A stretch of 64,000 nucleotides of DNA from Pseudofulvimonas gallinarii (GTDB lineage Bacteria > Pseudomonadota > Gammaproteobacteria > Xanthomonadales > UBA2363), in contig NZ_SMAF01000010.1 in the NCBI RefSeq assembly GCF_004343305.1, forward strand, positions 1-64,000, written 5' to 3'. The notes under the pieces are model-generated. The model saw only the letters and a list, made by a program, of their open reading frames with translations, did not search any database and was not told the DNA's origin. Below are positions 49,921 to 61,446 of this stretch, one piece after another. The translations under genes and the position numbers were made by a program. The stretch's first letter is position 1. Every line of letters begins with the position of its first letter.

Positions 49921-51192
49921 ATGCACGCCAGCCGTATCCGTTCCGCCATCGCCAGCCTGACCGCCAGCGCAGTGCTGACGCTGTCGGCGGCCGCCCCCGC
50001 CCTGGCTGAAAAGCCCGGCACGGTGACCACCATCCGTGGCGCAGGACCCGTCGTCCAGGCCATCAATGGCGCTCCATTGACGATCCGCGTCGGCGACGAG
50101 CACTCCTACCAGATCATCAACGCCGACATCCCGGGCGTTGGGCAGATCTATCCGTCCAGTTCTTCCGGCACCGCCGACATGGGCTGGATGGTGCGTACCG
50201 GCGGCGTCCTGTATGCACCCGCCTACAGCACCCATCCGTCCGGATCGGCGACCGGCAGCCTCGGCGCGTACACGGCCTACAGCGGGCGCACGATCAGCGC
50301 GGTCACCGGCACCGGCACCGCTGCCGATCCCTTCCGCGTCGTGGTGGAAAACCAGCTCGGCACCAGCGGCCTGAGCAGCCGCGAAACCGTCCGGTACGTC
50401 AATGGCGACAACTACTTCAGCAAGTCGTTCACGCTGACCAACAACAGCGCCGCCAGCCAGGATGTGAGCATCTTCCTCGGCGGCGACATCTATCTCGCCG
50501 GTGACGACAGTGGCGTTCCCTACCGCCAGTCTGCTTCCGGCAGCGTCGGCGGCAGCGACTGCGGGACGCCCGCGAGCTACTACATCCTCTATATCCCGCA
50601 GACGCCGGCCAATGCATGGACCGGCTCGGGTTATGGCAACGTCTGGTCGCAGATTGCCGGCGGCACCCTCAGCAATACCCTGTCCACCACCAGCTGCATC
50701 GACAATGGCGCGGCCCTGCAGTGGAACCGGACGATTCCGGCGGGTGGCAGCACCACGGTCGAGGCGCTGACCTCGTTCGGTGACATCCCCAGCATCCTCC
50801 TGTTCGACGTCGTCAGCGTCACCCCGGACAACGGCGCCCAGGGCAGCACGGTGAACGTGACTATTTCGGGCCTGGGCTTCGCGCCGGGCATGCAGCTGAA
50901 CTTCGGCAGCGGCATCACGCTGTCCAACCTGGTCGTCGTCAATGACACCACCGCGACGGCGACGCTGACGATCGCACCTTCGGCCACGGTCGGTCCGCGT
51001 GATGTCGTCGGCACCAACGACACCGCCACCCTGACCGACACGCTGGTGGCCGGTTTCCGCGTCACCAGCTCGGGTGGCCCGCTGCCCGGGGGTCCGGTAC
51101 GACCGGTACCGGCGGTGGATGGGTCCGGACTGGTGTTGCTGGTCGTCGGCATGCTGCTCGTCGGCCTGGTGGCTGCCCGCCGCTACAGCTGA
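49921..51192 (+). CDS. Exported IPT/TIG-domain protein with IPTL-like C-terminal sorting tail
   Basis: A 423-residue exported protein of unknown function. The ATG follows GGAGAG. A signal peptide covers about residues 1-28 (SAVLTLSAAAPALA). Residues ~30-295 form a beta-rich region rich in Ser, Gly and Thr that I do not recognise. An IPT/TIG immunoglobulin-like domain follows at ~297-385 (VVSVTPDNGAQGSTVNVTIS). The last 28 residues start VPAV, followed by a hydrophobic helix (LVLLVVGMLLVGLVAA) and an RR cluster. This matches the three-part design of IPTL-type sorting signals that are cut by exosortase-like enzymes, with VPAV in place of IPTL. It converges with the kinase gene. Confidence 0.82.
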   Translation: MHASRIRSAIASLTASAVLTLSAAAPALAEKPGTVTTIRGAGPVVQAINGAPLTIRVGDEHSYQIINADIPGVGQIYPSSSSGTADMGWMVRTGGVLYAPAYSTHPSGSATGSLGAYTAYSGRTISAVTGTGTAADPFRVVVENQLGTSGLSSRETVRYVNGDNYFSKSFTLTNNSAASQDVSIFLGGDIYLAGDDSGVPYRQSASGSVGGSDCGTPASYYILYIPQTPANAWTGSGYGNVWSQIAGGTLSNTLSTTSCIDNGAALQWNRTIPAGGSTTVEALTSFGDIPSILLFDVVSVTPDNGAQGSTVNVTISGLGFAPGMQLNFGSGITLSNLVVVNDTTATATLTIAPSATVGPRDVVGTNDTATLTDTLVAGFRVTSSGGPLPGGPVRPVPAVDGSGLVLLVVGMLLVGLVAARRYS

Positions 51193-51379: not shown

Positions 51380-54220
51380 TCAATCGAGTTGGCGGCAGTC
51401 GGCCGGCGGTGTGGTCGACATGACCCGCATGGCCGGTTCACCGGTTGTGTCCGCAATGGCCTGCGCATAGACGCTGCACACGCCGGCGAACGCGAACGCT
51501 TCCTCGCGGAAGCGCCGACGCAGCGTGGCAGCCGCATCGGCATCGCCGTCGGCGGCGGCCGCCCGGACCAGGATCAGCCGCGCCATCGACAGTTCGGTGG
51601 GATCGGCGCGCAGGTCCGGATTCGCGTCGACGATGGCGCCGGCAAGCATCCTGGCGCAACGCGGATCGCCCCGTTGCAGGCACAGCTCCGCATGCAGGCG
51701 GTCGGCGCTGCGGACCGCACGTTCCCGGAAGGGATGCGAAGACGGGACGTGCTCCAGGCCTGTACGGGCGGCAGCCAGCCAGCGCCCGGCGTCATCGATG
51801 TCACCGCGCAGCAAGGCCACGTCGGCGAGCAGGACCTGCGTCTGTACGCGTGTCGCACGCGCATCGGGCTGGGGCCGTCCGTCCAGCTCGCCCTCGAGCG
51901 TGCGCGCCACGGCACCGGCCTCGTCAAGCTGGCCGGCGCGGATGAGCCGACGTGCCAGGAAGCGGTCAAGCCCGATGACATCCATGCTATCGGTCGGCGT
52001 GCGACGCGCCACGCGACGGGCCTCCCGCGTCTCCGCGACCGATTCCTGGAAACGGCCACTGCGCTCGAGCGCCTCGGCAAGCTGCGCGCGGACGCTGGCG
52101 ACGGTGCGGAACTCCGGCCCGTACTGGCGTTGCCAGCGTTCGATCAGCCTGCCGTAGTCGGCCAGCACGGCATCGGAATGGCCGAGTACCAGCCGGTGTC
52201 CCGCCAGCAGCGTGTCCAGCAAAAGGTGTTCGCCGAGCAGCCCGGCCGTGGACAGGGTGGCCTGCAGGCGTTGCGACTCCTGGGCCGCGGCGGCGAACTC
52301 ACCCGCCTGGATATGGACGTCGACCAGCGCCGCGCGTGCCTGTGCCTGGTCCTCGATGGTGGTGCCCGCCCGTCCACGACGCGGCCGGCCCAGCGCGATC
52401 GCGCGCTGTGCCAGTTCGCGCGCCTGCGCGGGCGGCAACAGGCCATGGCGGGTTCCGACCCGGACCTTGGTCGTCAGCAGGCGCGACAGCGTCGAGACCT
52501 GCTGCGCGTCTTCGCTGGCGTGCTCGACCAGGGCGATCGCCGAATCCAGGTTTTCGATCGCAGCCGCGTGGCGCCCGGACAGCTCCAGCGCCATCGCCTG
52601 GCCCTCATGCAGGCGCGCCTGCACGATGGGATCGAGATCCTCACCCTGTTCCAGGCCACGCTGCGAGGCATCGACGGCCGAAGGGGTGTCGCGTGCGCCG
52701 GCATAGACGTCGGCGATCATGCCCATCAGCCAGGCGCGGACCTCCGGCGGCAGGTCGCGTTGGCCCATTTCGGTCTTCAGCAGTTCCAGCACGTCGCGAA
52801 CGCTGAGATCCGCACCTTTCTCGCCCGCTGTTGAACGCGCAAGCACATCGGTGACGAAATCGAAGGTGCGGGTGTACAGGTCGCGTTCGTAGCGCGTCTG
52901 CGCAAGCTGCACGCTGCGATAGGCGGTGAAGGCGACGACACCGGCCACGACCAGCGCGGATACCGCCAATGCGACCCGGTGCCGGCGCAGGAACCGGCCG
53001 AGGCGATAACGCCAGCGACCGGTATGGGCATGGACAGGACGGTGGTCCCGCCAGCGCCCGAGGTCGTCGTCGAGCGCATCGACGTTGAGGTAGCGCTGAT
53101 CGGGTTCGCGCTTCAGGCAGGCGTGGACGATGGCGCCCAGCCCGCCGGCGAGTTCCCGGCGGATGGCGGCGCGCGTGTTGCCGATCCCTTCCAGCGCGGC
53201 CGTGGGCGCGCGCGCGACCGCCTGCCATACCGGTTCGACCTCCTCGCCCTGTCCGCCGATGCGATGGCGCAGCAAGGTTGTTCCGCTGGCGTCCTCGGCG
53301 AAGGGGCCGACACCGGCAAGCAGCCGATACAGCAGCACGCCCAGCGTATAGATGTCCGTGGCCGGCCCCGCCTGCTCGCCGAGCAGCTGTTCGGGCGCGG
53401 CATAGGCGGGCGTCAGCGTCAGGTCGATGGTCTGGCCGGGCGTGGCATCACCCTCCGGATCGAAGAGCTTGGCGACACCGAAGTCGAGAAGCTTCACGCG
53501 TCCCTCGCCGGTGACGAGGATGTTCGACGGTTTCAGGTCACGATGAACGACGAGCCGCGAGTGCGCGTAACGGACCGCGTCCAGCACCTGGCCGAACAGC
53601 TCGACGCGGCCGCGCAGCGACAGGCGCTGTTCGTCGCACCAGCGGTCGATGGGGACGCCGTCGACCAGTTCCATCGCATACCAGGGTTCGCCCTGGCCGC
53701 TGACGCCGCCATCGATCAGGCTGGCAATGTTGTCGTGGCGAAGCCCGGCAAGGATGCCGCGCTCGCGCAGGAAGCGTCGTTGCGCGCCTACGCCGGCGAC
53801 CGCGGAGGCGACGATCTTGAGCGCGCAGTGCTGTTCGAACTGGCCATCGGCGCGCTCGGCGCGGAAGACCAGGCCCATGCCGCCCTGCCCGATCAGTTCG
53901 ATCAGCCGCCAGGCGCCGAACTGCCGGCCGATGAAGGCTGCGGCATCGACCGGCTCCTCGACCAGGTCGTCCGTCCACCGGGGCCGGGCGTCCAGGCGAT
54001 CGTCATCGCTGGCATCGGCCTCCAGCAGTTGCCGTACGACTTCCGCCAACTGCGGATCGCGCCGGCGGATCTCCGCCATGCGGCCGTTCCGGTGCGCGGG
54101 CGCAAGATCCAGCAATTCGTCGAGCAGTGCCAGACCTTCGGCCCAGCGCCTGCCGTCGGCATCGGTGTTCCCGGTCGGTACGCTGCACACCGTCTCAGCC
54201 GTTTCCGTGCTCCGCGCCAT
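51380..54220 (-). CDS. Membrane Ser/Thr protein kinase with extracytoplasmic TPR-like region
   Basis: A 946-residue (about) receptor-like kinase. The cytoplasmic kinase domain, about residues 80-370, has the Gly loop IGQGGMGLVFRAE, the VAIK-type lysine (CALKIV), the catalytic VVHRDLKPSNILV and LLDFGVAK. One transmembrane helix follows (VALAVSALVVAGVVAFTAY, about 420-440), then about 500 helical, Ala/Leu/Arg-rich residues that look like TPR repeats outside the membrane. Its start lies within the end of the sigma-factor gene, so the two are one operon. The exact ATG is uncertain (54220 or 54226). It probably phosphorylates the adjacent sigma factor, as in PknS-EcfP of Xanthomonas. Confidence 0.9.
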   Translation of the reverse strand: MARSTETAETVCSVPTGNTDADGRRWAEGLALLDELLDLAPAHRNGRMAEIRRRDPQLAEVVRQLLEADASDDDRLDARPRWTDDLVEEPVDAAAFIGRQFGAWRLIELIGQGGMGLVFRAERADGQFEQHCALKIVASAVAGVGAQRRFLRERGILAGLRHDNIASLIDGGVSGQGEPWYAMELVDGVPIDRWCDEQRLSLRGRVELFGQVLDAVRYAHSRLVVHRDLKPSNILVTGEGRVKLLDFGVAKLFDPEGDATPGQTIDLTLTPAYAAPEQLLGEQAGPATDIYTLGVLLYRLLAGVGPFAEDASGTTLLRHRIGGQGEEVEPVWQAVARAPTAALEGIGNTRAAIRRELAGGLGAIVHACLKREPDQRYLNVDALDDDLGRWRDHRPVHAHTGRWRYRLGRFLRRHRVALAVSALVVAGVVAFTAYRSVQLAQTRYERDLYTRTFDFVTDVLARSTAGEKGADLSVRDVLELLKTEMGQRDLPPEVRAWLMGMIADVYAGARDTPSAVDASQRGLEQGEDLDPIVQARLHEGQAMALELSGRHAAAIENLDSAIALVEHASEDAQQVSTLSRLLTTKVRVGTRHGLLPPAQARELAQRAIALGRPRRGRAGTTIEDQAQARAALVDVHIQAGEFAAAAQESQRLQATLSTAGLLGEHLLLDTLLAGHRLVLGHSDAVLADYGRLIERWQRQYGPEFRTVASVRAQLAEALERSGRFQESVAETREARRVARRTPTDSMDVIGLDRFLARRLIRAGQLDEAGAVARTLEGELDGRPQPDARATRVQTQVLLADVALLRGDIDDAGRWLAAARTGLEHVPSSHPFRERAVRSADRLHAELCLQRGDPRCARMLAGAIVDANPDLRADPTELSMARLILVRAAAADGDADAAATLRRRFREEAFAFAGVCSVYAQAIADTTGEPAMRVMSTTPPADCRQLD

Positions 54221-54818
54221 CGGCATCCGCGCCAGAGGCGTCGGCGCCGGACAGCGCCACCAGCAGGAACGCGCGTGCCTTTCGCCATTCGCGCTGCACG
54301 GTGCGATCGGTGACCCCCAGCGCCTCGGCGATTTCCATTTCGCTGTAGCCGCCGAAATAGCGCCATTCGACGATGCGCGCCATGCGCTGGTCCACCGCCT
54401 CAAGCTCGGCCAGCACGCGATCCAGCTCGATGGCATCCATGGCGTTCTCGCCAAAGCCGACCAGATCCTCGGAAAGGGTCACGGCCGCCTCGCCACCGCC
54501 GCGCTTGATCGCCACCATGCTGCGATACTTTTCCACAAGCACCTGGCGCATGGCGCGCGAAGTCAGGCCGATGAGGTGGGGGCGGTCCTTCGGGCGGAAG
54601 CCGGCGTCCGTCGCTACGCGCAGGAAGGTCTCGTTGATCAGCGAGATCGTGCTCATGGCGACGCGGTCATTGCGCAGGTAGCGGCGCGCGCAGCGGCGCA
54701 GGTCGTCATAGACGGTGCTGTAGGCCGCGCCCAGTGCCTCGGCGTCGCCATCCTGTGCCCGCCGGAGCTGCTGGGTCACGACACCGAGATTGAGGCCCGG
54801 CTCGATGGTTTCATCCAT
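54195..54818 (-). CDS. ECF-type sigma factor (TIGR02999/ECF43-like)
   Basis: A 207-residue RNA polymerase sigma factor. Region 2 lies at about residues 20-90, and region 4 at about 130-190 with the helix-turn-helix YSEMEIAEALGVTDRTVQREW. Where ordinary ECF factors have an acidic DAED-like motif in region 2.2, this one has Ser56-Thr57-Ile58-Ser59 before LINETFLRV. Loss of the acidic motif is the mark of ECF43-type factors, which become active when a partner kinase phosphorylates this region. The kinase gene overlaps its 3' end. The ORF is open 64 codons further up, but MDETIEPGLNLGVV with GAAGGGCGGGA before it is the better start. Confidence 0.88.
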   Translation of the reverse strand: MDETIEPGLNLGVVTQQLRRAQDGDAEALGAAYSTVYDDLRRCARRYLRNDRVAMSTISLINETFLRVATDAGFRPKDRPHLIGLTSRAMRQVLVEKYRSMVAIKRGGGEAAVTLSEDLVGFGENAMDAIELDRVLAELEAVDQRMARIVEWRYFGGYSEMEIAEALGVTDRTVQREWRKARAFLLVALSGADASGADADGAEHGNG

Positions 54819-55068
54819 TCCCGCCCTTCCACGGAACGCCACGCCGCCCGCGCCACTGCTGCGTTGCGGCGACACCCGCATACTGAAGGATGGCCGGCGA
54901 CCGGACAAGACCGGCGCCTGGGCCGGCCCGGAAAGCCGATTCGTGGCAATCTTGGCAAAAATCGGGTCAGCCGCCGGCCGGATGTCGGGTTCCGCCGTCT
55001 TCCGTCGCATTGCTTCATGGGGTCATTCCGCCCGTCGGCCCGCTACCTGCCCGCCAAGGAGTCAAGCC

Positions 55069-57837
55069 ATGCGCCGCGCCCATCCTCTTGTCACCGCGTC
55101 CGTCACCGCGCTGTCGCTGGCCGCCGCCTGTGCCGCCGCAGCCGTGAACCCGCCCGCGGCCGATGACGCCTGGGCGCGGGTCGAAATGGATCGCGACACG
55201 CTCACCGCATGGCTGGGGCCGGTTGCCGGCGTCGACTACGGCGCCTTCCAGTGGATCCCGGCGCATCTTCTCGCCACCCGGGCGCCGGTCGATCCGGCGC
55301 GGGTCACGGTCATCGAAGCGCCCTTCCGGATCACGCTGGGTGGCGAGTCGTTCGATCCCGCCGACCGCCCCCTGACCTTCGCCGGTCGCGAATCGACGGC
55401 GGCAACCGGACCGGGCTGGTGGCTGGTGCAGTTCGTCGGCCCGACGCGACGCGACTGGCTGGGCGACCTCACGGCGCGCGGGCTCAAGCCGGTCCAGTAC
55501 ATCCACCCGTTCACCTACGTCACATGGGGCGAGGCGGCGACGGTTGCATCGCTGCAGGAGGCCGGCCTGCCGCAGGTGCGCGCGGTGTCCGAATTCCGCC
55601 CCGACTACAAGTTCCGCCCGGACGAAGGGTTCCCGCCTGCCGTCGGCCACCAGCGCGAAATGATGGCGCTCGTCGCCAACGAGTATGTGCCGACGCTCCA
55701 GGGACGCATGGGGGCCGTCGGCGCGGCCATCCGTGCGATCACCGCGGTCAACAGCCTGCTCAGCGTCATCTATCTCTCCGCCACCGGCATCCGCGGCGGC
55801 GAGATCGCCGAATTTCCCGAAGTGTACGCCTTGCAGGATGTCCCCATGGATGGCGGCGTCCGCGGCGAGATCCAGAACCAGGTCAATGCCGGACAGCTCG
55901 ATGCCTCGGGCCGGGCACACACCGGTTACCTGGCATGGCTGGACGGCACCGGCCATGACGGCAGCACGGTCACCGTCAGCGTCGTCGACGAGTCCGGCTT
56001 CCGCGCCAGCCATCTCGACCTGGCCGACAACGTCTCGGGCTGCGTACCGCTGCCCGGACCGCTGAGCAGCTGCAGCGGCAACGCCTACAGCGACCATGCC
56101 ACGCATGTCGCCGGCGCCATTGCCGGTACCGGCGCCAGCGGCATCGTTGATGGAGAGGGATTCCTCCGCGGCATCGGCGTCGCGCCCGGTGCGCGCATCG
56201 TCGCGCAGGACTTCGTGCCGCTGCTGTCCTACGAGGAGGGTGGCATGGTTCCGGACGGCATGTCGGTGATCTTCACCGAAGCCGTCCGCAGCGGCGCCCT
56301 CATCAGCAACCACTCGTGGGGACCTTCATCGACCGCGCGCGGCTATGACATCCCGACCCTGCAGGTCGATATCGGCACCCGCGATGCGGATCCGGCCACG
56401 ACCAAGAACGAGCCGCTCCTTGCGGTGTGGGCGATCATGAATGGCCAGGGCGACCGCATGACCGGGCCCTGCGCACCGGCTTCGCTGGGATCGCCGGACG
56501 AAGCCAAGAACATCCTCGCCGTCGGCGCGACCTACCTGCTCGACGGTGCCGGCCAGCGTGCCGGTGAATTCGATCGCCTCGCCCACGTTTCCGCACACGG
56601 CAATGCCTGCGACGGCCGCCGCGTGCCGCACCTGGTCGCGCCGGGCTGCACGACCGACAACGCCAGCGCCGCCGGCGATCGTTCGCATTCGCGCGCCAGC
56701 AGTTTCTGCGGCACCTCGATGGCCGCGCCCAATGTCAGCGGCGCCGCCGCCCTGTTCTCGGCGCAGCATTACGCCCGGACCCGCATGCCGCCCAGTCCGG
56801 CACTGGTCAAGGCGGCGCTGACCGCCGTCGCGCACGACCTTGCCGGCCAGCGCAATGCGAACACGCAAGGCGAGGTGGTGATGGGACACCGCCCCGACCG
56901 TTTCCAGGGCTTCGGGCGACTGGACCTCGATGCCGCCGTGAATCCCGCCGCCGAGGTCATCCACGTCGACCAGACGCACGTGTTCCACGAGTCCGGAGAG
57001 GAGTGGCTGCTGCAGGTCGAGGCCGATGATCCCGACCTGCCGGTGCAGGTCATGCTCGCGTGGACCGATGCGCCCGGCCATGGCCTGGGTGGCGCGACCG
57101 CCGCATGGGTGAACGACCTCGACCTGCGTGTCCGCGCTGGCGCGCACGCCTTCCGCGGCAATGCGGTCGGCGCCGATGGCTGGTCCAGCGCTGGCGGCGT
57201 GCCGGACGGTGCGAACAACCTCGAGGGCGTCTTCCTGTCGCCGGCGCAGCACGGCGGCGATGTCCTCGAGATCGCCGTCCTGGCCACGAACATCGCCGGC
57301 GATGCGCTGGCCCCGCGCAATCCGCAGTTGGCCGGTCCGCGACAGGACTTCGCGCTGGCCTGCTACAACTGCACGACGCGGATCGACGCGAAATCGACAG
57401 CCGTCGATCTGGCGCTCCAGGCGCCATCGACCACGCCGGTCGTCACGCCGGGCGGCACGGTTGCGCTGCCCTTCTCCATCGTGCAGCCCGGACCGGGCAA
57501 AACGCAGAAACTGCGCGTGGACCTGGAACTGCCGGAAGGCCTCTGGCATGTCCGCCGCTCCGACAATGGCGCCTGGGAATGCGTCGGTGGCGGCCGCCAC
57601 GTCCGCTGCACGACGGCCGCCGATGCGATGCCGGGCACCGTGACCGCGGGCGACGTCCTCGTGCGTGCACACGCGGACCTGCAGCCGGGGCGCCTGCTTT
57701 CCGGCGTCGCGCGCGTCCGAGCGCGCGACAACAGCGATCCGGCCGGCAGCAACAATGCAGTCACGATCGCGGTGCAGGTGATGCCCCTGCAGGACCTGTT
57801 GCTCGTCGATGGATTCGAAGGCGGCGGACCGCACTGA
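55069..57837 (+). CDS. Secreted subtilisin-like serine peptidase (S8), paralogue of the one at the left edge
   Basis: A 922-residue exported peptidase; AAGGAG lies eight bases before the ATG and a signal peptide covers about residues 1-25. A propeptide-like domain (WWLVQFVGPTRRDWLGDL) resembles that of the peptidase at 1-2793. Catalytic residues: Asp307 in the unusual VVDESG (an extra residue compared with the common DTG/DSG), His343 in DHATHVAG and Ser550 in FCGTSMAAP. A CYNC-containing beta domain follows, then a conserved-repeat-like domain with two cysteines. The protein ends LLLVDGFEGGGPH, a short motif also seen inside the third S8 peptidase. It is divergent from the sigma-kinase operon, which may regulate it. 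Confidence 0.92.
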   Translation: MRRAHPLVTASVTALSLAAACAAAAVNPPAADDAWARVEMDRDTLTAWLGPVAGVDYGAFQWIPAHLLATRAPVDPARVTVIEAPFRITLGGESFDPADRPLTFAGRESTAATGPGWWLVQFVGPTRRDWLGDLTARGLKPVQYIHPFTYVTWGEAATVASLQEAGLPQVRAVSEFRPDYKFRPDEGFPPAVGHQREMMALVANEYVPTLQGRMGAVGAAIRAITAVNSLLSVIYLSATGIRGGEIAEFPEVYALQDVPMDGGVRGEIQNQVNAGQLDASGRAHTGYLAWLDGTGHDGSTVTVSVVDESGFRASHLDLADNVSGCVPLPGPLSSCSGNAYSDHATHVAGAIAGTGASGIVDGEGFLRGIGVAPGARIVAQDFVPLLSYEEGGMVPDGMSVIFTEAVRSGALISNHSWGPSSTARGYDIPTLQVDIGTRDADPATTKNEPLLAVWAIMNGQGDRMTGPCAPASLGSPDEAKNILAVGATYLLDGAGQRAGEFDRLAHVSAHGNACDGRRVPHLVAPGCTTDNASAAGDRSHSRASSFCGTSMAAPNVSGAAALFSAQHYARTRMPPSPALVKAALTAVAHDLAGQRNANTQGEVVMGHRPDRFQGFGRLDLDAAVNPAAEVIHVDQTHVFHESGEEWLLQVEADDPDLPVQVMLAWTDAPGHGLGGATAAWVNDLDLRVRAGAHAFRGNAVGADGWSSAGGVPDGANNLEGVFLSPAQHGGDVLEIAVLATNIAGDALAPRNPQLAGPRQDFALACYNCTTRIDAKSTAVDLALQAPSTTPVVTPGGTVALPFSIVQPGPGKTQKLRVDLELPEGLWHVRRSDNGAWECVGGGRHVRCTTAADAMPGTVTAGDVLVRAHADLQPGRLLSGVARVRARDNSDPAGSNNAVTIAVQVMPLQDLLLVDGFEGGGPH

Positions 57838-58551: not shown

Positions 58552-61446
58552 TCAGTTCGCACTGCCGACCACCAGACTGGACAAGGTCGACCACTGGCTG
58601 TTCGTGGCGGTGCCCTTGAAGGTGATGCGCGTGATCGGCGCCGCCGTGATGAAGCCGCGGAAGTCCGACGGACCGGCCGCGTCGTACTGCTCGGTGGTGC
58701 CGTCGCTCAGCTCGATGGTGACATTGGCGGCAACCGGCGCCACGGCGGCATTGGTGATCCAGAAATTGCCGCCCACCGCGGTGACTTCACCAGCCGTGAA
58801 GTCGACGACGATGTCCACGCCGGCGGAGTTGGGCGTGATGATGGCGTTCGGCTCACCCCAGAGGCCGTTGTTGTTGCCCGACCGCAGCTCGATCGTGTAC
58901 CCGGCATTGCTGAATACTTTCGGCTCGGCGATCGGGCCGAGGTCGCTGAACACCGGTTCGAGGGCGCCCGCCGCCAGCTGTGCCATGAACCCGGCACGAT
59001 CGGTGTACACCCCGGGCGTCGAGCCGCCGCCCTCGCCTTCGAAGCCATGCGCGAAGATCACGTCATCCAGCACGCCTTCGCCAAGCACGGCGATGGACAT
59101 GCCGAGGTCGGGCGATTGGCCAGGCGTGGCGGTGCCCAGGCGCAGGGCGCCGAACTGGATCCGCTGCGAGCCCGGCGTCGGCGTCGCGGTGATCGTCAGC
59201 GCCTGCGTGGCGCCGGCGCCGGCCAGCGTGAACGTGCCCGGCGACACCGTTACCGTGAAGCCGGGGGGATTCACCACCGCCACGTTCCAGGTCGCGGACG
59301 AAGCCAGCGTGCTCTTTACCGTGCGCGTCCAGCTGCACGAGGGTTCGCAGCTGCTGTGGCGCATCGACGGCAGGTTGAGCGTACGCACGTCACCGCCGCT
59401 GGCCGGATTCGCGGCGAGGAAGTTGGCGATGGTTTCGTCCATCACCAGGCCGGCGTTCGCGGCGCGGGAGACATCGATACGGCCGTTGCCGACATCGTCC
59501 GGCGTCCACGGCGTCACCACGTCCTCGCGCACGCCTCCGGTATTCAGGGCGGTCAGCATCACGGCGGATTTGATCTCGGTGGCCGTCCAGTCCGGACGCA
59601 CCGCGCGCAGCAGCGCGAAGGCGCCGGCGACGTGCGGCGATGACATCGACGTACCGCCGGTGATGCCGTATTCCGCGGCACCCGACGTTGCCTCGTTGGC
59701 CCAGGCTCCATAAATGTCGTCGCCCGGGGCGGTGATATCGGGCTTGGTGACGTCGAAGGCATTGCCGCTGCCCTGCGCGCCGGCGGGCACCGGCGTGATC
59801 GGGCCGCGCAGGCTGAAATTGGACAGCACATCGCCCTGGACGACCGGTGCATTGACCACCGCCGCGGCCGGGGTGCCGGACAGCGTGACCAGATGCGCCG
59901 CCAGTGCCTGGCCGACATCCTGGGCGATCGTATAGGCGGGGACCCCGGCCCCCTCGAGACCGGCCATGCCGGTGGGAACGCCGATGGCGTTGTTGAACAC
60001 CAGCACGCCGGTGGCGCCAGCCGCCTCGGCCTTCGCGACTTTTTCTGAAAAGTTGCAAGTGCCGCGTCGGATCAGCGCAATGCGTCCGGAGAGCAGTCCG
60101 GCCGGATAGCCGGGATCGGCGTTGCAGCCTTCCGGCGCGTCAGCGAAGTGCACGATCTCGATGTCGGCATCGTCCGCGAACTGGTGCGGGCTGCTGCTGG
60201 TGGTCAGCAGGATCGGCGTGGACAGCGGCGCCGGCACCGGTTCGGGACCGGTGATCGAGACCGACCCGCCCACGGGCGAGCCCTGTTCGTCATGCGTGCT
60301 GGAGGCCACCGAAGCGAGCCACGGGCCGCGATGGTTCACGTCACCTTCCGGCGTCGGGTTGAAGTTGGACTGCGTGGCATCCAGGCGCGTGTTGCCGGCG
60401 CTGGCGGCGACCAGGATGTCGGCCGTCACTGCATCGAGGAAACGGCGGTCGTCGGAGTTGCCGGACCAGACGCTGACGTCATTGCCGCCACCGCCGGAGA
60501 TGGAGAAATTGATGACATCCACGCCATCGGCAATCGCCTTCTCGATGGCGGCGGTGATCGCCGTGCCACTGCAGGTGCTCGACGAGCACACCTTGTAGCT
60601 GTTGATCCGGGCGCAGGGTGCCACGCCAGACATGTCGAATTCCGGCGCCGGCGTCGTCCCGGCGACGGTCAGCGTGTTGCCCGCCGCGATGCTGGCGACG
60701 TGCGAACCGTGGCCGGTGCAGTCCTCCGGCGTCGGGCCATTGTTCGCCGACGCGCAGCTGCCGCTTGAGGCGGTGGTGCACGTCCCGCCGACCATGCAGG
60801 TGTAGGCCGTCAGCTTGGGCTGGCCGGCTTCGGCGCCGCACTCGGCCGGCAGCGGGCCGAACGACGGATGGTCGCGATTGCTGCCGGAATCGATGATGCC
60901 GACGACGATGCCTTCGCCGCGCGTCGGCAGGTTCGACGGCGTCGCGGCCCCGCTCCAGATCGCGCCGGCGCCAATGAACTCCGGGCCGCGGAATGTATCG
61001 AGCTGGCGGTCGGGCACGTGATCGACCGATTTCACACCCGGCAGCGATGCGATGGCGCGTGCTTCGTCGGCGGTCAGCTCCAGGCCGATGCCGCTGATCG
61101 TGATGCTGTACAGGTAGACCTGGCCCGGATCGCGGCCGATCTTCCCGGCGATCGCAGCGGTGCGCCCGGCCTGCAGCGCGGCCAGGTGATCGAGGTAGGC
61201 CCGGCTGTCGCTGCTGGAAACGTCCAGCTTGCGGCGACCCGTTGCAGCCGGCGAGGTCGCCTTCAGTTCGCGGATGCCGCCGTGGTAGTGCAGCAGACCC
61301 GGCTCGTCGAAGGTGACGATGTAGTTGCGGCGCTCGCCCTGCGCAGCCGTCGACTTGACGTCCGGTTGCGCGCTGGCGGCGGGTGCAGAAAGGCCGGCGG
61401 CGGCTACGGCCGCGGCCAACAAAAATCCGATGATCGATCTACGCAT
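58552..61446 (-). CDS. Secreted subtilisin-like peptidase with PA domain (S8)
   Basis: A 964-residue exported peptidase of a different subfamily from the other two. The ATG follows GGAGAG and opens a signal peptide (GFLLAAAVAAAGLSAPAASA). An inhibitor I9-type propeptide follows (about 40-150, NYIVTFDEPGLLHY). Catalytic residues are Asp186 in IIDSGS, His246 in GHGSHVAS and Ser600 in GGTSMSSP. A protease-associated domain is inserted at about 440-540 (LSGRIALIRRGTCNFSEK). After the catalytic domain come a fibronectin-like region, the motif DVIFAHGFEGE and a C-terminal beta domain of about 125 residues (GNFWITNAAVAPVAANVTIE), probably a substrate-binding module. A strong terminator follows. Confidence 0.93.
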   Translation of the reverse strand: MRRSIIGFLLAAAVAAAGLSAPAASAQPDVKSTAAQGERRNYIVTFDEPGLLHYHGGIRELKATSPAATGRRKLDVSSSDSRAYLDHLAALQAGRTAAIAGKIGRDPGQVYLYSITISGIGLELTADEARAIASLPGVKSVDHVPDRQLDTFRGPEFIGAGAIWSGAATPSNLPTRGEGIVVGIIDSGSNRDHPSFGPLPAECGAEAGQPKLTAYTCMVGGTCTTASSGSCASANNGPTPEDCTGHGSHVASIAAGNTLTVAGTTPAPEFDMSGVAPCARINSYKVCSSSTCSGTAITAAIEKAIADGVDVINFSISGGGGNDVSVWSGNSDDRRFLDAVTADILVAASAGNTRLDATQSNFNPTPEGDVNHRGPWLASVASSTHDEQGSPVGGSVSITGPEPVPAPLSTPILLTTSSSPHQFADDADIEIVHFADAPEGCNADPGYPAGLLSGRIALIRRGTCNFSEKVAKAEAAGATGVLVFNNAIGVPTGMAGLEGAGVPAYTIAQDVGQALAAHLVTLSGTPAAAVVNAPVVQGDVLSNFSLRGPITPVPAGAQGSGNAFDVTKPDITAPGDDIYGAWANEATSGAAEYGITGGTSMSSPHVAGAFALLRAVRPDWTATEIKSAVMLTALNTGGVREDVVTPWTPDDVGNGRIDVSRAANAGLVMDETIANFLAANPASGGDVRTLNLPSMRHSSCEPSCSWTRTVKSTLASSATWNVAVVNPPGFTVTVSPGTFTLAGAGATQALTITATPTPGSQRIQFGALRLGTATPGQSPDLGMSIAVLGEGVLDDVIFAHGFEGEGGGSTPGVYTDRAGFMAQLAAGALEPVFSDLGPIAEPKVFSNAGYTIELRSGNNNGLWGEPNAIITPNSAGVDIVVDFTAGEVTAVGGNFWITNAAVAPVAANVTIELSDGTTEQYDAAGPSDFRGFITAAPITRITFKGTATNSQWSTLSSLVVGSAN

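Follow-up and report, generated by a model that had tools for sequence, protein, structure and literature searches.

An ECF43-type sigma factor with isoleucine at the usual phospho-acceptor position, encoded beside a receptor kinase in Pseudofulvimonas gallinarii

For only a handful of sigma factors has activation by phosphorylation been demonstrated, and the two that have been studied give different answers as to whether one site counts or two. Both belong to the ECF43 family of extracytoplasmic function (ECF) sigma factors. These proteins carry QTTA where others have DxxD, and the Thr at the third place, conserved in 88% of them, is phosphorylated (PMC13147305). In ordinary ECF sigma factors the acidic contact positions read DxxDxxQE (PMC13147305). 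EcfK of Xanthomonas citri has the motif QATE, with the phospho-acceptor T51 at motif position 3, and the linker position of its T106 is Ser, Thr, Asp or Glu in 76.9% of ECF43 proteins (PMC13147305). EcfP of Vibrio parahaemolyticus has STTA, of which the second Thr is phosphorylated (PMC8999054). Here a kinase-paired member of this family is described in which the usual acceptor position is occupied by isoleucine. It lies in a 64,000-nt stretch of Pseudofulvimonas gallinarii DNA (NZ_SMAF01000010.1, 1-64,000), called the window, and the product of 54195-54818 is called the window sigma factor. L and G numbers are the handles used for loci and genomes, and f numbers those for families.

The pair and the register of its region 2.2 motif

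An earlier sequence-only reading of the window had proposed an ECF43-like sigma factor. With NCBIfam TIGR02999 as a proxy for ECF43 membership, the assignment was borne out: the protein scores 150.6 bits (cut-off 126.15) and falls inside the tree of TIGR02999-type sigma factors. Its Pfam Sigma70_ECF score is 125.9 bits, and the ATG is preceded by a Shine-Dalgarno-like GGAAGGG. Besides the family score, the pair has the adjacent Hanks-type kinase gene and the lack of an acidic DxxD in region 2.2 that mark ECF43, and the linker position of EcfK T106 is Thr (T114). Thr at motif position 3, which is typical of the family and not strictly defining, is replaced by Ile58. A single-sequence AlphaFold2 (AF2) model of the sigma factor (mean predicted local distance difference test score, pLDDT, 50.7) was not used.

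The membrane Ser/Thr kinase gene that had been read as overlapping the sigma factor gene was confirmed. The two frames share 26 nt, from which translational coupling may be inferred, and the motifs GQGGMG, HRDLKPSN, DFG and APE are all intact. The kinase has one transmembrane (TM) segment only, with about 510 residues outside. Its closest solved relative is 9eed_A (E 1.2e-47), and 9EED is PknS of X. citri (PMC13147305). The outer part had been described as resembling tetratricopeptide repeats (TPR), and here the picture is mixed. An AF2 model, of low confidence, is all-helix, and many of its top Foldseek matches are TPR proteins, none of which reaches E 0.001; TPR_12 scores 27.3 bits, below its cut-off of 30.1. 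The outer part is probably TPR-like.

The absence of acidic residues from region 2.2, with STIS at residues 56-59 instead, was upheld by the alignment register. SxxSxxNE of the window sigma factor occupies the DxxDxxQE register, which puts Ser56 and Ser59 at the two acidic contact positions. A phospho-site at T57, as had been suggested, was not: the acceptor of EcfK and EcfP is motif position 3, which is Ile58 in the window, and T57 is the variable motif position 2. The register comes from an alignment of 17 paralogues and from L193, an EcfK-like reference found among 20 genomes with few copies, which has T35, QATE with T51, T104, T106, S108 and S110 at the published places. T57 as counterpart of EcfK T51 was thereby excluded. 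Against L193, I58 corresponds to T51, T114 to T106, S116 to S108 and D118 to S110. The name EcfP had also been given to the Xanthomonas sigma factor, which is EcfK. The Ile58 codon is ATC (54645-54647), one transition from the Thr codon ACC.

Rarity and ancestry of the substitution

The 3.45-Mb genome encodes 17 TIGR02999 sigma factors over the cut-off, and up to 35 homologues of the window sigma factor are found per genome within the same order. A kinase gene lies directly beside 12 of the 17 and one gene away from L010, and the remaining four (L006, L008, near a contig end, L009 and L012) have no adjacent kinase. For comparison, 72 sigma factors were collected, consisting of the 17 and 55 best matches elsewhere. 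A listing of gene neighbourhoods covers 72 sigma factor genes. It has no sigma factor row for the fetched regions L102, L148, L151, L160, L162 and L165, and the motif of L172 is blank; the genome's own L002 and L005, missed by the gene finder, were inspected separately.

Thr stands at motif position 3 in 15 of the 17 paralogues and in 66 of the 72 collected proteins. The six others are the window sigma factor (Ile), L041 and L043 (Val), L051 (Ser), L060 (Asn) and L009 (Cys). The linker column of EcfK T106 is Ser, Thr, Asp or Glu in 64/72. Further evidence of rarity came from DNA patterns. Among 398 genomes of the order, a pattern for [ST]-hydrophobic-[ST]-L-[IVM]-[NH]-E with its flanks was matched in 3, namely the window and the GSVS sigma factors of G037 and G051 (one match in the reversed control). 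When Thr was placed at position 3, a comparable pattern matched 217 times, in 61 genomes, and its control never. Among the variants, L168, L179 and L185 have NPST, with Ser at the phospho-position followed by Thr, and a kinase gene directly downstream.

In a 73-row tree, the window sigma factor stands beside L070-L072 from G371, G391 and G119 (support 100/95), with the motifs NTTA, NTTA and TTTA, respectively. These sisters, from family f12, are 49-53% identical to the window sigma factor and have a related kinase nearby; at least two of them have YadA-type adhesin genes no more than 6 kb away. They differ from it in their canonical xTTA and in the placement of the kinase gene, which is convergent, lies upstream or is 4.6 kb away, whereas that of the window overlaps on the downstream side. 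The residues to which the sequence-only reading had given weight are thus conserved in part: position 2 is Thr in all three sisters, as is T57, whereas position 1 is Asn in two and Thr in one, position 4 is Ala in all, and S56 and S59 are not conserved.

The GSVS sigma factors of G037 and G051 (family f11) are the only other ones with [ST]-hydrophobic-[ST] in the 398 genomes, and in G037 the kinase gene adjoins the sigma factor gene. They differ from the window in their separate tree branch, Gly at position 1, an upstream kinase gene and a gene for a repetitive exported protein downstream. They are not part of the 23-row clade to which the window sigma factor belongs (98/91). Because the two sit in separate lineages of the tree, Thr is, on these sequences, lost at least twice, and each time the kinase is kept and Ser is found at position 4. 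The protein encoded downstream of GSVS sigma factors (L112, L043) is an exported one built of IDTSSG/IDTGSG repeats.

The closest sigma factor clade belongs to families f2 and f12, and the window to family f1. In two genomes of the same genus the best matches reach 43% and 42% identity, and no close orthologue is present. Downstream of purH, the window has the exported protein gene, the sigma/kinase pair and the subtilase gene; the two same-genus genomes have unrelated genes, and the pair is absent from this spot. Transfer and differential loss both fit as the origin of the window pair.

The other paralogue without Thr at position 3, L009 (locus L030), has DTCA, the linker VALD without the linker Thr, and no adjacent kinase. 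Its orthologues in G001 and G002 (L154, L166; 81% identical) have DTRA, the linker VDLE with Asp at the T106 place, and a divergent adjacent kinase gene. Unlike the window sigma factor, these orthologues are acidic both at motif position 1 and at the counterpart of T106. The contrast between L009 and these orthologues may mark a step towards phosphorylation-free activity.

A candidate switch and its alternatives

The best reading of the window pair is a putative kinase-switched sigma factor, because its family, its pairing with a kinase and the missing acidic residues of region 2.2 were all confirmed. For EcfK, a phosphate on either T51 or T106 is reported as both necessary and sufficient; T51A still works, and T51A/T106A does not (PMC13147305). 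The window sigma factor looks like a natural T51-less EcfK with the T106 counterpart kept. Since it retains T114, this behaviour of the EcfK mutants makes T114 the most likely switch. The kinase and sigma factor would then form a one-component-like signalling pair, the latter switched through linker T114 and driving nearby genes for surface or secreted proteins, a proposal to which an even chance is given. Without a signal, the sigma factor would bind core RNA polymerase poorly. The helical periplasmic part of the kinase would sense an envelope or outside cue, the kinase would phosphorylate T114, perhaps along with S116, and the negative charge would let the sigma factor hold the beta' subunit. 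Transcription of the nearby genes, most plausibly that of the divergent subtilase, would follow. The site in region 2.2 would have been lost in the window lineage, or shifted to the neighbouring serines.

Several points weigh against this proposal. It concerns one sequence from one draft genome, in which T58I amounts to a single base change (ATC for ACC). The sisters keep Thr, so selection for STIS is not supported. Moreover, Glu at position 4 of EcfK and contacts by Arg, His and Tyr may be what makes T51 dispensable there (PMC13147305); as the window sigma factor carries Ser in place of that Glu, T114 may be insufficient by itself. The targets are guessed from the neighbourhood, and exported genes as a whole show no enrichment next to such pairs at the 72 loci (38/135 vs 128/563, P 0.11).

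The alternative that survives best places the acceptor elsewhere within region 2.2. The kinase would phosphorylate Ser59 (or Ser56, or Thr57), and phosphoserine at Ser56/Ser59 would restore the canonical contact. That SxxSxxNE stands where DxxDxxQE is described agrees with this, as does the separate GSVS lineage of G037 and G051, where a hydrophobic residue at position 3 is accompanied by Ser at 4 and 2 and the kinase is kept. The retained Ser at position 4 of GSVS is the strongest argument for this alternative. The NPST sigma factors, in addition, tolerate Ser at position 3 beside a kinase. However, Ser occupies position 4 in 12 of the 72 sigma factors, many of them Thr-bearing, so it may be neutral; the sister sequences do not conserve S56 and S59; and the available portions of PMC13147305 and PMC8999054 report no phosphosite at positions 1, 2 or 4. 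A moved acceptor is viewed as tentative and somewhat unlikely.

It is less probable still, and on balance doubtful, that the sigma factor has drifted from kinase control, being weakly constitutive or decaying, with the kinase acting on something else. Its terminal branch is long (0.63, compared with 0.03-0.28 in the three sisters), its TIGR02999 score is the lowest among the 17 paralogues over the cut-off, its closest clade lies in other families, and L009 provides a paralogue in which Thr loss goes with the lack of an adjacent kinase. A drifted sigma factor fits poorly, however, with two genes that are intact and overlapping and with the retention of T114, and the lost charge has not been replaced by an acidic residue. 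Finally, an assembly or sequencing error in the Ile58 codon, the true motif being STTS, is very improbable: it would take one transition from ACC in a single draft genome of 57 contigs, but genome completeness is 100% and contamination 0.25%, the frame shows no defect, and a further deviation from the usual xTTA is seen in A59S.

Neighbouring genes, the C-terminal tag and known systems

The coordinates of the pair and its neighbours are collected in Table 1.

Table 1. Features of the sigma/kinase locus in the window
Feature	Position	Strand	Basis or remark
ECF43-type (TIGR02999) sigma factor gene, 207 aa	54195..54818	minus	TIGR02999 and Sigma70_ECF matches
Codons of S56-T57-I58-S59, register of DxxD (other ECFs) and QTTA (ECF43)	54642..54653	minus	17-paralogue alignment, L193, PMC13147305, PMC8999054
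Codons of linker T114-L115-S116, counterparts of EcfK T106 and S108	54471..54479	minus	Gapless alignment from KR motif to EcfK-like L193
Hanks-type Ser/Thr receptor kinase gene, 946 aa	51380..54220	minus	PF00069, 137.5 bits; ATG at 54226 also possible
Sigma/kinase reading-frame overlap, 26 nt	54195..54220	minus	Sequence; 32 nt if kinase ATG is 54226
Predicted TM segment of kinase, residues 414-435	52916..52981	minus	Hydropathy
Extracytoplasmic all-helical, probably TPR-like sensor part of kinase	51380..52906	minus	Weak TPR_12; low-confidence AF2 model; Foldseek
Intergenic region between divergent sigma factor and subtilase genes	54819..55068	.	Candidate target promoter
Divergent exported S8 subtilase ending in LLLVDGFEGGGPH	55069..57837	plus	PF00082, C-terminal tag; candidate target
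Exported protein with C-terminal TM segment and Arg-rich end	49921..51192	plus	'IPTL' tail recognised by no model

Two exported neighbours had been named at the outset. The secreted protease was verified as the divergent S8 subtilase. The IPTL tail of the other protein (49921-51192) is not supported and was rejected, as its last 50 aa match no IPTL-CTERM model even at E 10; the single model match for this tail is NF033207, midcut_by_XrtH (E 0.11). The window encodes three exported S8 subtilases altogether (1-2775, 55069-57837 and 58552-61446).

Comparative data speak, indirectly and in part, for exported proteins as targets, as had been proposed. In the closest sigma factor clade, the pair is often divergent from a gene for a trimeric autotransporter adhesin. 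All six neighbours submitted (L094, L095, L096, L103, L104 and L105) contain YadA stalk and head domains; the adhesin gene is the divergent next gene in L094, L103, L104 and L105, and in L106 by resemblance only. A subtilase gene likewise lies divergent from the paralogue pair L034, and its product is 38% identical to the divergent subtilase of the window. The missing general enrichment of exported genes, and the absence of the pair from this spot in the two same-genus genomes, count on the other side. A surface or secreted target of the window sigma factor is plausible from this gene context. No shared promoter motif before exported genes was established in the upstream sequences of the closest clade, read by eye; a TATGCGAAACTC-like stretch recurs near the sigma factor start at several loci of families f2 and f12 and resembles a standard -10 element.

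The tail of the window subtilase (tag at 57802-57819, protein end LLLVDGFEGGGPH) led to a wider pattern. D-x-[IL]-F-x-[DN]-G-F-E forms a C-terminal tag that has no name as yet; it is carried by dozens of proteins unrelated to one another, many of which show exported-protein features. The shorter [LF]-x-[DN]-G-F-E has 63 sites in this genome (control, 2). Thirty of these loci (L118-L147), inspected together with the window, gave 31 distinct occurrences, of which 25 end within 8 residues of the stop. Of 23 tails that were aligned, 21 have Asp at the third place ahead of F and 22 have Ile or Leu immediately ahead of it, and neither residue was part of the query. With the stricter pattern there are 44 sites in this genome, and 99 further genomes of the phylum, of which 96 lie outside the order, have none (control, 1). 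In 9 tagged tails tested, the tag itself is covered by no Pfam or NCBIfam model. In literature text the tag strings searched were not found, except IFANGFE, whose listed matches (10 of 18 papers) look unrelated.

Moreover, counts of F-x-[DN]-G-F-E per genome rise with those of window sigma factor homologues (Spearman 0.81 across 41 genomes, 0.79 across the means of 12 families, and 0.79 with genome size taken out). Tailed genes are over-represented beside sigma/kinase pairs in a sample taken once the idea had been formed (7/70 vs 7/269, P 0.012, with the loose pattern; 4/70 vs 3/269, P 0.036, with the strict one). In the genome of the window, adjacency is not significant (3/28 vs 6/139, P 0.18; strict, 0/28). 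The relation between tag and sigma factors is an association, and the genomes share ancestry. A bolder proposal would have two separate lineages move the switch from Thr at position 3 to Ser at position 4, an acidic contact position, and the many ECF43-kinase pairs of the order (about 17-35 per genome in rich families) act as dedicated regulators of exported proteins with this tag. Such a combination is considered a long shot. Should the link to the tagged proteins hold, one of the largest expansions of the ECF43 family would gain a function, and the tag may matter more than the switch finding.

With its main site lost and its second site and kinase kept, the window sigma factor separates the two sites without mutagenesis bias, and offers a natural test of a recently discovered class of switch. 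The same genome provides a graded series (17 sigma factors, 12 beside a kinase) that runs from the canonical Thr, through no Thr with a kinase, to no Thr without one.

The closest described counterpart is EcfK-PknS of X. citri (FEBS J 2026, PMC13147305). The sigma factor is of the same family and the kinases are alike in architecture, with an N-terminal kinase domain, one TM segment and a periplasmic part that is of the TPR type in PknS and probably so in the window kinase; among solved structures, the window kinase domain is closest to PknS (9EED). The linker Thr and Ser at T106 and S108 are kept in the window sigma factor. It differs in that T51 is Ile58, QATE is STIS, with no Glu at position 4, and S110 is Asp118. 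Furthermore, no type VI secretion system genes were recognised among the window neighbours looked at, where a subtilase and an exported protein are encoded instead. EcfP-PknT of V. parahaemolyticus, also ECF43, shares the lack of an acidic residue in the DAED register and the partner Hanks kinase (PMC8999054). Its motif STTA differs from STIS at two positions, and the second Thr of STTA, the only phosphosite reported for EcfP, is the residue missing in the window sigma factor (PMC8999054). Its known regulon concerns polymyxin resistance (PMC8999054).

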